From Flavobacteriales bacterium (GTDB lineage: Bacteria > Bacteroidota > Bacteroidia > Flavobacteriales_D > Crocinitomicaceae), in the NCBI GenBank assembly GCA_947500755.1, contig CANMTO010000009.1, forward strand, positions 1-64,000: a DNA stretch of 64,000 nt. Direction: 5' to 3'. Below, in pieces: positions 10,510 through 17,450 of this stretch (its first letter is position 1; the number at the start of each line of letters is the position of its first letter). A program made the translations under genes and the position numbers. The notes under the pieces were generated by a model. That model saw nothing but the letters and a program-made list of their open reading frames with translations, was not told the DNA's origin and searched no databases.

Positions 10510-12366
10510 ATGGCTTCAACAGCGCACGATGTACATTCTCATGATCACCACGAGCATCATCATGAAGAAAGTTTTGTTTCTAAATATATTTTCAGTCAAG
10601 ACCATAAAATGATTGGCAAGCAGTTTTTGATAACTGCGATATTCATGGGGTTAGTGGCGATGCTCTTATCGATCCTTTTTAGAATCCAGCTGGCATGGCC
10701 AGGGGAGAGTTCTGATTTTCTAAATTTCTTTTTAGGGGATCAATGGGCTCCGGAAGGGGTATTGAAAGAGGATATGTATTTAGGATTAGTAACCATTCAC
10801 GGTACAATCATGGTGTTCTTTCTTTTAACCGGAGGATTATCAGGAACGTTCTCCAATATATTAATTCCTTTGCAATTGGGCGCGCGTGACATGGCATCAG
10901 GGTTTTTAAACATGTTGTCTTATTGGTTCTTCCTCCTCTCTTCACTGATTATGTTCCTCTCGTTGTTCGTAATGAATGGTTCGATTTTTGGAATTGATAT
11001 ACCCGGAGATTGGGGAACCATAGGAAACGGACCAGCGATGGCAGGTTGGACGGTCTACCCTCCGTTGTCAGCGCTACCACAAGCAGTTACCGGTTCAGGG
11101 TTTGGGATGACCTTGTGGTTGTTTTCAATGACGATATTTATTGCGGGTTCATTAATTGGAAGTTTGAATTATATCGTTACCGTTTTGAATTTACGTACAA
11201 CCGGCATGACCATGACAAGAATGCCATTAACCATATGGGCGTTTTTTGTTACCGCAATTCTAGGCGTACTATCTTTCCCTGTTCTCTTGTCTGCTGCGCT
11301 CCTTCTGATGATGGATCGAATGGCAGGAACAAGTTTTTATTTATCTGACATTATGGTGGGTAGCGAGATGTTATCCAATCATGGAGGTTCGCCGATTTTA
11401 TTCCAGCATTTGTTCTGGTTCTTAGGTCACCCGGAAGTTTACATTGTATTATTACCAGCACTAGGGTTATCCTCAGAGATTATTGCCACCAATGCAAGAA
11501 AACCGATTTTTGGTTATAAAGCGATGATTGGGTCCATATTAGCTATTGGGTTCCTGTCCTTTATTGTGTGGGGTCACCACATGTTTATAACCGGAATGAA
11601 TCCATTCTTAGGTAGTGTGTTTGTTTTTACCACCTTGTTAATTGCGATTCCTTCAGCGGTAAAAGTATTCAACTATATTACTACGTTGTGGAAGGGTTCT
11701 ATCGTGTATACGCCAGCGATGTTGTTTGCAATAGCACTAGTGTCTACGTTCATAACAGGTGGGGTAACAGGGATTATCTTAGCGGATTCTGCCTTAGATA
11801 TCGCTCTGCATGACACCTATTTTGTGGTAGCACACTTCCATATTGTAATGGGGATGTCTGCGGTATTTGGAATGTTTGCAGGGGTATACCATTGGTTCCC
11901 TAAGATGTATGGACGAATGATGAATAATCGAATGGGGTATGTACATTTTTGGATAACTATTGTCGGTGCCTATGGTGTTTTCTTCCCGATGCACTTTGTG
12001 GGTATTGCTGGTGCGCCAAGAAGATATTATGATTACTCTGTTTTTGGTGAATTCGATACGGACACCTTTAATATGATCATGGATCTGAATGTGATCATCA
12101 CGGTGTTTGCCATTATAGCAGCTGTAGGCCAAGTTATTTTCTTATTCAACTTTTTCTACAGTATTTATAGAGGCCCGGTGGCGCCACAAAACCCTTGGAA
12201 GTCCAATACCCTAGAGTGGACAGCCCCAGTCGAACACATGCATGGAAATTGGCCTGGAGCCCTACCTGTTGCTCACCGTTGGCCGTATGATTACTCTAAA
12301 CCAGGCGCAGCGGATGACTTTATTCCGCAGAATGTGCCCTTAGCCGAAGGAGAAACAGAACATTAA
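10510..12366 (+). CDS. coxA: Cytochrome c oxidase subunit I
   Basis: Catalytic heme-copper subunit, 618 residues with about 12-14 helices. Catalytic residues are in place: H97 and H444 for the low-spin heme, H442 for heme a3, and H307, H356 and H357 for CuB, with the covalently linked Tyr311 in GHPEVY. The N-terminal 20 residues are unusually His/Asp/Glu-rich (HSHDHHEHHHEE), a feature seen in Bacteroidota subunit I that might bind copper; that role is inference. No subunit III or assembly genes follow; the operon ends here at a clear terminator. Confidence 0.96.
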   Translation: MASTAHDVHSHDHHEHHHEESFVSKYIFSQDHKMIGKQFLITAIFMGLVAMLLSILFRIQLAWPGESSDFLNFFLGDQWAPEGVLKEDMYLGLVTIHGTIMVFFLLTGGLSGTFSNILIPLQLGARDMASGFLNMLSYWFFLLSSLIMFLSLFVMNGSIFGIDIPGDWGTIGNGPAMAGWTVYPPLSALPQAVTGSGFGMTLWLFSMTIFIAGSLIGSLNYIVTVLNLRTTGMTMTRMPLTIWAFFVTAILGVLSFPVLLSAALLLMMDRMAGTSFYLSDIMVGSEMLSNHGGSPILFQHLFWFLGHPEVYIVLLPALGLSSEIIATNARKPIFGYKAMIGSILAIGFLSFIVWGHHMFITGMNPFLGSVFVFTTLLIAIPSAVKVFNYITTLWKGSIVYTPAMLFAIALVSTFITGGVTGIILADSALDIALHDTYFVVAHFHIVMGMSAVFGMFAGVYHWFPKMYGRMMNNRMGYVHFWITIVGAYGVFFPMHFVGIAGAPRRYYDYSVFGEFDTDTFNMIMDLNVIITVFAIIAAVGQVIFLFNFFYSIYRGPVAPQNPWKSNTLEWTAPVEHMHGNWPGALPVAHRWPYDYSKPGAADDFIPQNVPLAEGETEH

Positions 12367-12372
12367 TGATTG

Positions 12373-12395
12373 AAAGCCCCATTGGGGCTTTTTTT
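12373..12395 (+). terminator. Intrinsic terminator after coxA
   Basis: A perfect 8-base stem AAAGCCCC / GGGGCTTT with a 3-base loop (ATT), followed by TTTT. It lies 7 bases after the coxA stop. The stop codon of the opposite-strand gene (12394-12396) falls in the T run, so the hairpin may slow transcription from both directions, although the minus-strand T tail is only three bases long. Confidence 0.88.
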
Positions 12396-12975
12396 ATGGC
12401 TCTATGTTTTCTATTTCTGGGGCAACAAGTTCAAGCTCGTTGAAATAGTCTTGCCCAAATGCTCGAATGATGGGTTCCTTGAGAAATTTATATACAGGCA
12501 TTTCAAGCTTACTTCCACAGGCACATGCGGATTCGCAAATGTTCCACTCATCGAATTGGAGCGCTTTAAAATTCTGATATTGCTTAACACGTATGGGATA
12601 AAGAGAACAAGAAATAGGTTTAATGTTATCGATTGCTCCTGCGCGGTGTGCGGCTTCTATCGCACACAAGGCGATTTGATTTTTGTCAAAAAACACAAAC
12701 GCACATTCCTTTCCATCCACAAGCATGGTTACAGGTTCGTTTTCTTGGTCCAGGTAGGAAACACCCTTACGTTCAATTGCCGCAAGACCTTCCGGGCGCA
12801 TGTAGGGTTTAATGTGCTCAAGGTGTTCTGAAATTTGGATTACTTCTTCTGAAGTTAGTGGCGCACCCGCATCGCCCTCAACGCAGCAGGCACCTTTACA
12901 AGAGGCTAAATCACAGACAAATTTTCGCTTGAAAATTTCTGCCGATACAATGGTGTCGTTGAGTTCAATTAACAT
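12394..12975 (-). CDS. DUF3109 family cysteine-rich protein
   Basis: A 193-residue cytoplasmic protein of the DUF3109 family, related to putative zinc- or iron-chelating YkgJ-type domains. Cysteines cluster as C-x4-C-x3-CC near residues 21-31 (CDLASCKGACC), with further Cys in ECAF, LCAI, SCSLYPIR and ESACAC, which probably bind a metal or an iron-sulfur cluster. Function is unknown. A minus-strand TAATTTTG at 12987-12980 sits only 4 bases before the ATG, so the message may be nearly leaderless. It stands alone between the respiratory operon and the rimP operon. Confidence 0.85.
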   Translation of the reverse strand: MLIELNDTIVSAEIFKRKFVCDLASCKGACCVEGDAGAPLTSEEVIQISEHLEHIKPYMRPEGLAAIERKGVSYLDQENEPVTMLVDGKECAFVFFDKNQIALCAIEAAHRAGAIDNIKPISCSLYPIRVKQYQNFKALQFDEWNICESACACGSKLEMPVYKFLKEPIIRAFGQDYFNELELVAPEIENIEP

Positions 12976-12979
12976 GCCT

Positions 12980-12987
12980 CAAAATTA
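12980..12987 (-). promoter_or_regulatory. Candidate -7 element for the DUF3109 gene
   Basis: Read on the minus strand this is TAATTTTG, a match to TAnnTTTG. Its last base is 4 bases before the ATG at 12975, so transcription would begin at or next to the start codon. No good -33 TTG is seen. Confidence 0.4.
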
Positions 12988-13001
12988 ATGCGAATTTTTG
13001 A

Positions 13002-13033
13002 TTTGGAAGTTTCTTATAATTAACCTACCTTTG
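13002..13033 (+). promoter_or_regulatory. Promoter of the rimP-nusA-infB operon
   Basis: TTTG (13002-13005), 20-base spacer, TACCTTTG (13026-13033): an exact match in sequence and spacing to the Bacteroidota primary sigma-factor promoter. A start near 13037 gives a leader of about 46 bases holding the hairpin at 13053. Confidence 0.85.
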
Positions 13034-13052
13034 TTTTAGGTTAAATGATAAT

Positions 13053-13079
13053 GAGGGGACGGAAGTCCCCTCTTTTTTT
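13053..13079 (+). terminator. Terminator-like hairpin in the rimP leader (possible attenuator)
   Basis: A perfect 8-base stem GAGGGGAC / GTCCCCTC closed by a GGAA tetraloop, followed directly by seven T. It has the full form of an intrinsic terminator, yet it lies between the promoter and the rimP ATG at 13083 and ends 3 bases before that codon. Since nusA is the second gene of the operon and NusA affects pausing and termination at hairpins, autoregulation by attenuation is a reasonable inference. No upstream anti-terminator stem or leader peptide was found in the 46-base leader. Confidence 0.8.
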
Positions 13080-13082
13080 ACT

Positions 13083-13556
13083 ATGATTGACAAAAAGTTA
13101 GTGTTAAAATTAGCGGAAGAACGTATTCAGGAATTGAATAGAGGGCTTTTTATTGTGGAATTATCTATTTCAACGCGAAATGTGATCAGTATTGAATTGG
13201 ATAGAGAAGATGGCGGTGTTTCTATTGAGGATTGTATTTCTGTTTCACGGAACGTTGAGCATAACCTGGATAGAGAAACCGTGGATTTTGAACTGAACGT
13301 TTCCTCTGCGGGTATGGATCGACCCTTACGCCATCACAAACAGTTTGTCAAGAATACAGGTCGCCGCTTGACCTTTCTAAAAACAGACGGGGTACAAATT
13401 GAAGGGACATTAAAGTCATTTAGTGCCGATAGTTTTTTAGTATCGATAGAACGAATCGTTAAAAACGAAAAGAATAAAAATGAACTTATAGCAGAAGAAT
13501 TTACCATCCCTGCGAAAGAAATAAAAGAAATAAAACGTGTAATATCCTTTAAATAA
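13083..13556 (+). CDS. rimP: Ribosome maturation factor RimP
   Basis: A 157-residue RimP, needed for late assembly of the 30S subunit. The N-terminal alpha/beta domain includes IELDREDGGVSIEDCISVSR and the ELNVSSAGMDRPL segment (equivalent to the conserved VSSPG-x-D-RPL), and the C-terminal SH3-like barrel begins about residue 92. The gene heads the conserved rimP-nusA-infB operon, with nusA 6 bases downstream. The start codon comes just 3 bases after a terminator-like T run, leaving no room for a Shine-Dalgarno sequence. Confidence 0.95.
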   Translation: MIDKKLVLKLAEERIQELNRGLFIVELSISTRNVISIELDREDGGVSIEDCISVSRNVEHNLDRETVDFELNVSSAGMDRPLRHHKQFVKNTGRRLTFLKTDGVQIEGTLKSFSADSFLVSIERIVKNEKNKNELIAEEFTIPAKEIKEIKRVISFK

Positions 13557-13562
13557 AAACCA

Positions 13563-14798
13563 ATGAATAGTATTGATTTAGTTGAATCCTTTTCCGAGTT
13601 TAAAGAGCTTAAAAACATTGATAAGCAAACCATGCAACATGTGCTTGAAGATGTATTTCGGGCCATGCTGAAAAAGAAGTTCAATACCGATGAACATATC
13701 GATGTAATTGTGAACATTGAGAAAGGTGATGTACAGATTTTCCTAAATAAGGAGATCGTTGATGACGGTGAAGTGGAAGATCCAAATACAGAAATCGCCT
13801 ATTCTGATGCCATTAAAATAGAACCAGATTTCGAAATTGGAGAAGAGGTAACCGAAGAATTTAAGTTTATGGATTTTGGACGTCGAAACGTGCTTTCATT
13901 ACGTCAAAATCTGATTTCTCGAATTCTTGAATTGGAAAAAGATCATTTATACAAAAAATACAAGGAGCGCGTAGGAGAAATTGTTACCGGCGAAGTATAC
14001 CAAGTTTGGAAGAAAGAAATCCTAGTAATGGACGACGATCACAACGAGCTTATTTTGCCGAAATCGGAACAAATTCCGTCAGATTTCTTCAAAAAAGGAG
14101 AAACAGTGCGAGCCGTAGTTTCAAAAGTAGACATGCGAAATAGTACTCCAGTGATTATTCTCTCGAGAACAGCCCCAGAGTTTTTGGAGCGTTTGTTTGA
14201 ATTGGAGGTTCCAGAGGTATTTGATGGCTTAATTACCATTAAAAAGATTGTTCGTGAGCCCGGCGAACGCGCTAAAGTAGCGGTTGAATCCTATGATGAC
14301 CGTATTGATCCAGTAGGGGCATGCGTCGGAATGAAAGGAAGCAGAATTCATGGAATCGTTAGAGAGCTGCGCAATGAGAACATTGATGTGATTAATTATA
14401 CGTCGAATAATCAGCTGCTTATTCAACGAGCATTGTCTCCCGCGAAAATAACGTCCATGGAAATCGATGAAGAAGAAAAACGTGTGAAAGTGTTTTTAAA
14501 ACCAGATCAAGTTTCTTTAGCTATTGGTCGGGGTGGAAACAACATTAAGCTGGCCGGTAAATTAGCGGGTTACGAAATTGACGTGTATCGCGATGGAGAA
14601 GTGGATGTGGAAGACGTTGATTTAGAAGAATTTGCAGATGAAATAGACGGGTGGATTATTGATGAATTAAAAACCATCGGTTGCGATACTGCGAAGTCTG
14701 TACTTGAAATGAATATTGAAGAATTGGTTAAACGTACCGATTTAGAAAAAGAAACAATTGAAGAGGTATTCAAAATTTTGAATGCAGAATTTGAATAA
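13563..14798 (+). CDS. nusA: Transcription termination/antitermination factor NusA
   Basis: NusA, 411 residues, binds RNA polymerase and modulates pausing, termination and antitermination. Order: N-terminal polymerase-binding domain (1-about 125), S1 domain (about 138-200, starting GEIVTGEVYQVW), KH1 with the GMKGSRI turn, KH2 with GRGGNNIKLA, and a short acidic C-terminal helical region (about 345-411) with a helix-hairpin-helix-like stretch. The length is normal for Bacteroidota. It lies between rimP and infB in the conserved order. The leader hairpin of this operon could be a target of its own product. Confidence 0.97.
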   Translation: MNSIDLVESFSEFKELKNIDKQTMQHVLEDVFRAMLKKKFNTDEHIDVIVNIEKGDVQIFLNKEIVDDGEVEDPNTEIAYSDAIKIEPDFEIGEEVTEEFKFMDFGRRNVLSLRQNLISRILELEKDHLYKKYKERVGEIVTGEVYQVWKKEILVMDDDHNELILPKSEQIPSDFFKKGETVRAVVSKVDMRNSTPVIILSRTAPEFLERLFELEVPEVFDGLITIKKIVREPGERAKVAVESYDDRIDPVGACVGMKGSRIHGIVRELRNENIDVINYTSNNQLLIQRALSPAKITSMEIDEEEKRVKVFLKPDQVSLAIGRGGNNIKLAGKLAGYEIDVYRDGEVDVEDVDLEEFADEIDGWIIDELKTIGCDTAKSVLEMNIEELVKRTDLEKETIEEVFKILNAEFE

Positions 14799-14825: not shown

Positions 14826-17450
14826 ATGGCAGGGAAACCCATTCGTTTAGGAAAAGCAGCAGGTGAATTAAATGTTGGATTGCCAACGTTAGTGGAATTT
14901 TTAGGCTCTAAAGGCATAACGATTGACTCTAATCCAAATACGAAATTAGACCCAGAGCATTTTCAGTTATTGTGTACCGAATTTGCAGCCGACCAAACCT
15001 TGAAAGAACAGGCGAAAGGCACGGCTCAAAAAGAAAAAAAGGAATCGATTTCACTCAGAGATACGCGCCAAGAAACACCGTTCATTCAACAAAAGCAAGC
15101 GGAGGACGAGGATGGCGATGATATTAATTTAGAAGAAATTAAACGTGCGGTTTTGGAACCCGAAACAGTTAAGCCAAAATCAAATGAGCCACATGTGAAT
15201 GTGGTAGGAAAAATAGATTTGGAGGCCTTAAAGCCAAAGAAAAAGCCTGAAGTTGTTTTGCCCGAACCTGAGATTGAGGCTCCAAAACCATTAGAGCCCA
15301 AGGTTGAAGAAAAACCTGCCGCTCCGGTGATTGAAACCCATAAAACCGTACGTACCGTATTGACGGGGCCTACCGTCCTAGGTAAAATTGATTTACCAGT
15401 TGAGCGTCCTAAATCGAGTGCCTCGAGTGCTGCCGCAGAAGAAGAAAAACGCAAACGCAAACGTATAAAGAAGGTAGAAACTCCTCCTCCCGGAGCAAAA
15501 CCGCAACCTGCGAAACCGGGTGTCTTTAAGGCGGAAAAAAAGGAAATATCTGAACACGACATTCAAAAGGAAATTAAAGAAACCCTCGCTCGTCTGTCCG
15601 GTCAAGGGTCCAAATCTAAGTCCTCCAAGAATCGAAGAATTAAAAGAGATAATGTAGCCCAGCGCCGTCAAGAAGAAATGATTGCTGCAGAACTAGACGA
15701 TAAGATTCTCAAACTTACAGAGTTTGTGACCGTTTCAGAATTAGCAAGTATGATGAGCGTACAGCCCACACAGGTTATTTCTGCCTGCATGTCTTTAGGG
15801 ATCTTTGCATCGATTAATCAACGTTTAGATGCTGAAACAATTCAAATTGTTGCCGACGAATTTGGTTTTGAAACAGAGTTTATTAGCGCTGAAGTTCAAG
15901 ATGCCGTGCTAACGGTAGAAGACTTACCGACAGAATTAGTTTCTAGGCCCCCTATTATTACGGTGATGGGGCACGTGGATCATGGTAAAACTTCGCTATT
16001 AGATAGAATACGAAACGCAAACGTAACTGACGGTGAGGCTGGAGGGATTACCCAACATATTGGTGCCTACTCGGTAACGCTAAAAGATAATCGTAAAATG
16101 ACCTTCCTAGATACGCCAGGTCACGAAGCCTTTACCGCAATGCGTGCTCGAGGAGCTCAAGTCACTGACCTTGCAATTATTATTGTTGCTGCAGACGACG
16201 ATGTCATGCCACAAACAAAAGAGGCCATCTCTCATGCGCAGGCCGCAAATGTACCCATGATTTTTGCCATCAATAAAATTGATAAGCCGGGTGCAAATCC
16301 TGACCGAATCCGCGAACAATTATCCCAAATGAATATTTTGGTAGAAGATTGGGGTGGAAAATATCAGGTGCAGGAAATTTCCGCGAAAAAAGGACTAAAT
16401 ATCCCTGAATTGCTAGACAAGGTCTTGCTGGAAGCAGAAATGTTAGAGCTCAAGGCAAATCCGAATAAAAACGCGGTTGGAACAGTAATTGAATCGTCGT
16501 TGGACAAAGGAAAAGGGTATGTTACCAACATCTTAGTTGAGGCGGGTACCATGCGGATTGGAGATGTGGTTCTTGTAGGTAGACATTACGGTCGCGTAAG
16601 AGCGATGCATGATGAACTCGGAGTAGTCTTGAAAGTTGCGGGACCAGCGCAACCGCTATCGATTTTAGGAATCAACGGAGCTCCAAGTGCAGGAGATAAA
16701 TTTCACGTATTGGATGATGAAAAAGAAGCCAAAGCGCTTGCTGCCAAGCGAGAACAATTATATAGGGAACAGGGCCTTCGTACGAATAAACACATCACAC
16801 TCGATGAAATTGGACGCCGTTTAGCGATTGGTGACTTCAAAGAGTTGAATATTATTGTTAAAGGGGATGTAGACGGGTCGATCGAAGCCCTCTCTGATGC
16901 CTTACAAAATTTATCAACCCCAGAAATTCAAGTAAATATAGTACTCAAAGGAGTTGGAGCAATTTCTGAGGCTGACATTAACTTAGCCTCGGCATCTGAC
17001 GCTATTATCATCGGATTCCAGGTGCGACCAACCGTTGGTGCACGAAAATTAGCAGAAACGGAACAAATCGACATCCGCCTTTACTCCATTATCTACAAGG
17101 CCATTGAAGAAATTAAAGCGGCGATGGAGGGAATGTTATCTCCGGATATTGAAGAAAAAGTAACGGGAACTGCTGAAATTCGTGAAACATTCGATATTAC
17201 TAAAGTTGGAACTATCGCAGGATGTTATGTAGTCGATGGAATCATCAAACGCTCTGCTAAGGTTCGGGTAATTCGTGATGGCATTGTGATTCATAACGGA
17301 ACGCTTGGATCTCTCAAACGCTTTAAGGATGACGTGAAGGAAGTCAAGAATAACTACGAATGTGGATTGAATATCGATAAGTTTAATGACATCCAAATTG
17401 GAGATTTAGTAGAGGCATACGAAGAAGTTGAAGTTGCAAGAAAGCTTTAA
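14826..17450 (+). CDS. infB: Translation initiation factor IF-2
   Basis: IF-2, 874 residues, a GTPase that places initiator tRNA on the ribosome. The N-terminal third (about 60-290) is a charged Lys/Glu/Pro-rich linker of low complexity. The GTPase domain starts near residue 375 with G1 GHVDHGKT (382-389), then DTPGHEAF, and NKIDKPG as G4. Domains II-IV follow to the C-terminus, including the [13 protein letters not shown] segment. Start and length fit the family. A new promoter for tatA lies just after its stop, so the rimP operon probably ends here; no hairpin terminator was seen. Confidence 0.97.

Follow-up and report, generated by a model that had tools for sequence, protein, structure and literature searches.

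A terminator-like hairpin conserved before rimP-nusA-infB in Bacteroidota, a candidate NusA-responsive attenuator

The general form of the rimP-leader, as given in the accessible main text of Naville and Gautheret (2010; PMC2965389), is a terminator hairpin with a T stretch located 4 to 130 nt upstream of rimP and carrying the motif GGGc...gCCC. NusA of B. subtilis is described as stimulating termination in the leader of its own operon via an intrinsic terminator (excerpt of PMC12288461), and for gbs0413-gbs0418 of S. agalactiae, transcripts ending 31 nt after the start were seen by RNA-seq (excerpt of PMC4448216). For Flavobacterium psychrophilum, the available portion of a transcriptome study reports a structured 5′ element upstream of rimP that is conserved in other genera and has no Rfam match (PMC9723704); among the full or partial texts returned by our literature search, this study alone was found to name a rimP leader element in Bacteroidota, and the accessible main text of PMC2965389 contains no word beginning with Bacteroid- or Flavobacteri-. 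Attenuators of this kind have been described before, and their occurrence in flavobacteria is on record. As far as the literature search goes, three things are new: a survey of the phylum together with the covariation of the stem, the tie between hairpin and promoter, and a control in which the stem letters vary less than those of ordinary terminators. A little-studied, widespread attenuator is thereby extended, through sequence and covariation, to a phylum that has a promoter type and start-site rules of its own.

The window, i.e., the whole stretch of 64,000 nucleotides analyzed here, comes from a Flavobacteriales genome of 2.56 Mb and carries on its plus strand rimP (13083 to 13556; Pfam RimP_N, E = 4.4e-10), nusA (13563 to 14798; Pfam NusA_N, S1, and KH domains), and infB, encoding IF2 (14826 to 17450; Pfam IF-2 and GTP_EFTU domains), separated by gaps of 6 and 27 bases. 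Before rimP, GAGGGGAC (13053 to 13060) and GTCCCCTC (13065 to 13072) pair perfectly over 8 bp around a GGAA loop (13061 to 13064), forming on the plus strand a terminator-like hairpin (13053 to 13072) that is followed by a T7 tail (13073 to 13079), the bases ACT, and the rimP ATG at 13083. The ATG thus lies 10 nt from the end of the stem and 3 nt from the end of the T run. The first-pass annotation had described an 8-base stem, a GGAA loop, and T7 ending three bases before the ATG, and this anatomy proved exact to the base. Folding of positions 13040 to 13120 yielded a z-score of -3.76, with equal stability in 0 of 200 shuffles, and the centroid fold contained no pairing outside the hairpin. 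A loose terminator scan of 2 kb (12000 to 14000) called five sites, compared with 2.1 ± 1.4 in shuffled sequences; the same palindrome was also called on the minus strand, with the poorer tail ATTATCATTT.

Upstream of the hairpin, TACCTTTG (13026 to 13033, plus strand) matches the Bacteroidota -7 box, the consensus of which is given as TAnnTTTG in the available portion of PMC9723704, and such a box precedes the stem in all 59 loci of the order that were compared. The promoter had earlier been called near-perfect; this holds for the Bacteroidota consensus only, as a sigma-70-type scan of positions 12000 to 14000 returned no promoter on the plus strand. Twenty bases before the -7 box, the plus strand carries TTTG (13002 to 13005), a possible -33 element of the Bacteroidota type. 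Judging from the -7 box, transcription is predicted to start near 13038, and the predicted leader RNA (13038 to 13082, plus strand) would comprise about 45 bases up to the ATG, about 15 of them before the stem.

In its overall design, the element of the window looks like the Bacteroidota form of the rimP-leader attenuator and the counterpart of the NusA-autoregulated Bacillus leader. As far as the accessible text of PMC2965389 describes the rimP-leader, the two share the operon, with rimP as the first gene, the T stretch, the closeness to the rimP start, a G-rich 5′ arm (GAGGGGAC) and a C-rich 3′ arm (GTCCCCTC), constant stem letters, and the lack of a visible antiterminator. With respect to the range of 4 to 130 nt given there, the stem of the window ends at 10 nt and its T run at 3 nt, so that agreement with the lower limit depends on the measuring point. 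Compared with the published motif GGGc...gCCC, the stem GGGGAC...GTCCCC retains the GGG/CCC core and has an A-T pair in place of the weakly conserved c-g; some relatives carry GGGGC/GCCCC stems. As in the nusA leader of B. subtilis, an intrinsic terminator in the 5′ leader would gate entry into the operon, but the action of NusA has been shown in B. subtilis, according to the excerpt of PMC12288461, and is a prediction for the window; moreover, the B. subtilis leader measures about 180 nt (PMC2965389, accessible text), compared with about 45 here. The leader of gbs0413-gbs0418, as outlined in the excerpt of PMC4448216, belongs to the same genes and is similarly short, but comes from a different phylum. 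The element of F. psychrophilum, compared by name only from the available portion of PMC9723704, stands before the same gene in a related family of bacteria and is likely identical with the hairpin described here.

Rfam holds the leader of the same operon as family RF01770 (rimP), and this family did not detect the element: none of 40 genomes gave a match above the gathering cutoff, a match among 14 control genomes was obtained only in E. coli, and positions 12376 to 13600 of the window gave no match at E ≤ 10. With all Rfam families, no match at the gathering cutoff was obtained in 20 loci, the weak matches of the window near the hairpin all being below it. Three subthreshold matches to RF01770 were all located on contigs other than those with rimP. 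One of them (G003:C22:15587-15688, L065), considered as a candidate and rejected, lies directly after citrate synthase and is probably the 3′ terminator of that gene; weak RF01770 matches may therefore be plain terminators.

Conservation was assessed with a strict detector that required a stem of 5 or more pairs with 4 G-C pairs among them, a loop of 3 to 8 bases, and 5 or more T residues within the 8 bases that follow. A rimP gene was found in 58 of 60 genomes, including the window's own. The set for the order comprised 59 loci, namely 57 of 59 RimP matches and, in addition, L034 and L035; the two matches left out, in G010 and G047, are truncated at contig ends. The set includes the locus of the window as well as one duplicate (L034 equals L002). 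Outside the order, 60 loci were taken from 141 matching genomes: all 34 that belong to the class but to another order, and 26 of the 104 that fall outside the class, the latter picked for spread over families. Start codons were chosen by a script, except that the start of L059 was moved by hand for the box search, alignment A1, and the distances, and that of L069 for the distances. Within the order, the detector finds a terminator-like hairpin before rimP at 58 of the 59 loci, compared with 22 of 5,900 shuffled leaders (0.4%), and the single miss is due to a misplaced start, the hairpin being present there. Detection reached 29 of 34 loci in the other orders of the class (shuffles, 28 of 3,400 or 0.8%) and 17 of 26 in the rest of the phylum (shuffles, 47 of 2,600 or 1.8%). 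The upstream regions of nusA, used as a control for the 60 loci outside the order only, gave one strict match. The hairpin before rimP is no accident.

Of the 14 misses outside the order, six (L069, L089, L091, L110, L118, and L124) match with a longer loop, fewer T residues, or a wider stretch, L091 only with a poor T tract, and two more (L100 and L113) fold into a hairpin with a bulge or internal loop. In another five (L067, L068, L114, L115, and L116), imperfect hairpins are visible by eye only, and the relaxed detector fails at that place; L122, at least, has no hairpin and folds no better than its own shuffles. Seven genomes of the phylum gave no RimP match. All seven have nusA, and in six a frame of 176 to 211 codons ends no more than 130 bases before it, which, by position only, we take as a diverged rimP; a strong hairpin precedes the upstream neighbor of nusA in only three of the seven. 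Wherever the loci with rimP were read, nusA comes after it: at all 59 of the order and at all 60 outside it. On the other side, a DUF3109 gene (12394 to 12975 in the window; Pfam) is encoded divergently upstream of rimP. Of the 59 loci, 36, including the window, have this divergent neighbor within 140 bases of rimP, and one has it at a distance of 810 bases; at the remaining 22, no such gene was found. As DUF3109 is divergent at these 36 loci, the hairpin there is not the terminator of an upstream gene.

At greater phylogenetic distance, the letters of the stem differ wholly (GAAGGGAACG, GTGGGG, GCCCG, and others), with pairing and T tract kept. For a closer view, alignment A1 was made without structural information from 56 distinct leaders of the order, three identical ones having been dropped. 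Of its stem cells, 93.9% are paired, and two-sided changes were counted in 38 cells, compared with 11.6 ± 2.8 after shuffling; sliding the partner lowers both pairing and the two-sided count. Counted by stem pairs, five showed a two-sided change compared with 4.2 in shuffles, i.e., no excess. Many sequences in A1 belong to one genus with an invariant stem, so that it is the more distant loci, a part of them shifted by the aligner, that supply the two-sided changes. RNAalifold recovered six of the eight stem pairs, four with two-sided changes. The evolution of the stem is that of a paired structure. The first-pass annotation had staked its reading on conservation of the stem among relatives, and on this point the reading survived, the hairpin being conserved with compensatory changes.

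The distances within the leader indicate what the hairpin is attached to. Over the 59 loci of the order, the -7 box and the stem are separated by 25.1 ± 3.9 bases, and the stem and the start codon by 18.4 ± 9.9 bases; within the order, the hairpin is tied to the transcription start more than to the translation start. The contrast is weaker in 32 loci of the other orders of the class (23.3 ± 5.2 versus 19.2 ± 7.7 bases), and outside the class only 5 of 18 loci showed the TAnnTTTG box. In relatives, stem and start codon are 4 to 42 bases apart. The distance is 36 to 42 bases in 9 of 58 loci, and the T tract still adjoins the stem in the rows read, which identifies the T run as the tail of the hairpin. 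The proposal that it substitutes for a ribosome binding site had to be given up on these grounds. The same T tracts, together with the loose distance between stem and start, speak against a role without termination, in which a 5′ hairpin would shield the mRNA or make it harder for ribosomes to load. A stable stem near the 5′ end that stops 10 bases from the ATG in the window would suit such a role, which we nevertheless regard as extremely improbable. The tails themselves vary: within the order, an unbroken T7 occurs in 26 of 58 loci, including the window, and T4 followed by another base in 11 of 58; in the other orders of the class, T7 was found in 2 of 29.

The explanation that we favor, and consider probable by analogy with Bacillus, is that of a transcription attenuator at which NusA favors stopping and limits its own operon. 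RNA polymerase would start near 13038, synthesize about 15 bases of RNA, and then encounter the terminator hairpin and the U tract, where it would either stop after about 40 bases or continue into rimP-nusA-infB. NusA, the second gene product, would most likely promote stopping, so that high NusA would lower expression of the operon; we infer termination in the cell, its being partial, and NusA as the sensor. An antiterminator in the leader was considered and rejected, as only about 15 bases before the stem leave no room for it. From the geometry, the rimP start codon would not yet have been transcribed when the polymerase is located at the T run, which argues against the earlier suggestion that the operon senses translation of rimP. 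These two points together favor an elongation factor, NusA first, over the sensing of rimP translation; control would be simplest if a factor acted on the polymerase during elongation. NusA, which had been put forward as the sensor, is by analogy the most plausible candidate. A caveat arises from the NusA-dependent terminators of B. subtilis, the U tracts of which are often interrupted according to the excerpt of PMC8060035: the T7 of the window is unbroken, which makes dependence on NusA less certain here, and the terminator might work without it. A strong hairpin with T7 in principle needs no factor at all, and the short stretch before the stem leaves no antiterminator, both of which would fit a fixed terminator without a sensor whose sole effect is to scale down operon transcription by a fixed ratio. 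A weaker promoter would have the same effect, however, and retention throughout the phylum and the constancy of the letters would be hard to explain, so that we rate a fixed terminator as quite unlikely. Being tiny, with about 45 bases from the predicted start to the ATG, the element is an easy place to study how the NusA level is set.

Within the genus of the window, the 8-base arm GAGGGGAC is present in 35 of 35 genomes, its own included; RimP of the other members is 43 to 97% identical to that of the window. Among 41 genus genomes, 39 match a 24-base pattern, with at most one mismatch allowed, at one place each, and two do not match it; in 35 of the 39 the pattern stands directly upstream of rimP, the remainder being G010, where the match is on a contig other than that of the rimP fragment, and three genomes without a rimP lookup. 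The loops vary at the same time (GAAA 24, GCAA 8, and three others once each). A GNRA loop (GAAA, GCAA, or GGAA) occurs in 33 of the 35 genus hairpins (L001 to L010, L012 to L030, and L037 to L042), the loops of the control terminators being mixed. These controls were the 3′-end hairpins of three genes that, judging from their protein sequences, are gltA, ahcY, and pckA, using the best 30 loci each (29 for pckA) of 39, 37, and 38 matching genomes. Hairpins were found in 20, 27, and 18 of these loci, and their arms came in 10, 20, and 9 versions, with a mean identity of 47%, 45%, and 56% over the first six bases, although the hairpins picked may represent different terminators in different genomes.

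Judged by this comparison, the stem appears to be more constant than pairing requires, and the constant letters suggest that a protein reads its sequence. Reading by a product of the operon would account for a stem that is constant in the genus while the loop changes and ordinary terminators drift. That the hairpin is both a protein-reading site and a terminator, with NusA or RimP recognizing GAGGGGAC/GUCCCCUC in this group, is accordingly offered as a tentative proposal, which we consider possible but somewhat less than probable. The identical arm in 35 of 35 genomes, set against the drift of three ordinary terminators, would also suit the same attenuator with another sensor, with the conserved letters as the binding site of RimP, NusG, or some other protein; RimP was also considered by Naville and Gautheret (PMC2965389, accessible text). 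Such a sensor is without a known binding site, and for a ribosome assembly factor such as RimP acting via mimicry of rRNA, an idea that was rejected, no hairpin with these arms was found in three rRNA-bearing loci of two relatives, the window's own genome giving no rRNA match. A sensor other than NusA seems unlikely to us. The core can also serve as an ordinary terminator: besides the rimP leader, the window's own genome contains one further perfect GGGGAC/GTCCCC hairpin (L031:1501-1516, G000:C3:23225-23240), in which GGGGAC-TTCG-GTCCCC is flanked by A and T runs between convergent frames and forms a two-way terminator. Because the stem letters are constant, the identity of the factor that reads the rimP leader is open to direct experiment.

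The leader of the window also contains a frame of 13 codons (13045 to 13086), which starts with an ATG before the stem, passes through the hairpin and the T tract, and ends with a TGA overlapping the rimP ATG. A frame from an upstream ATG is open through the stem in 39 of the 59 leaders of the order, and in the window, as in several close relatives, such a frame ends with a stop that overlaps the start of rimP. A ribosome on such a frame could open the hairpin, and the operon would then sense translation initiation. The cases belong mostly to one genus, however, and frame and end vary among relatives, for which reason a conserved upstream frame was rejected; in the other orders of the class, 14 of 32 leaders have an open frame, compared, by a looser measure, with 33.5% of shuffled leaders with an ATG (39.5% for the order). 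Given also the short time for ribosome loading, ribosome-coupled control is in our view very unlikely.

A 464-kb sample of the window's own genome, with crude ATG-based calls of 344 genes of at least 100 codons, was used to place the arrangement in context. A hairpin within 130 bases upstream was found for seven of these genes (rimP and six others) and a 3′-end hairpin for 22, and rimP was the only one of the 344 to show -7 box, hairpin, and start in this order. A gene for a BBP2-type porin (L137:6357-7409, minus strand) is preceded, 34 bases from its start, by a strong hairpin that ends in T9; the divergent neighbor of the gene is 537 bases away, and this hairpin is possibly a second leader terminator.
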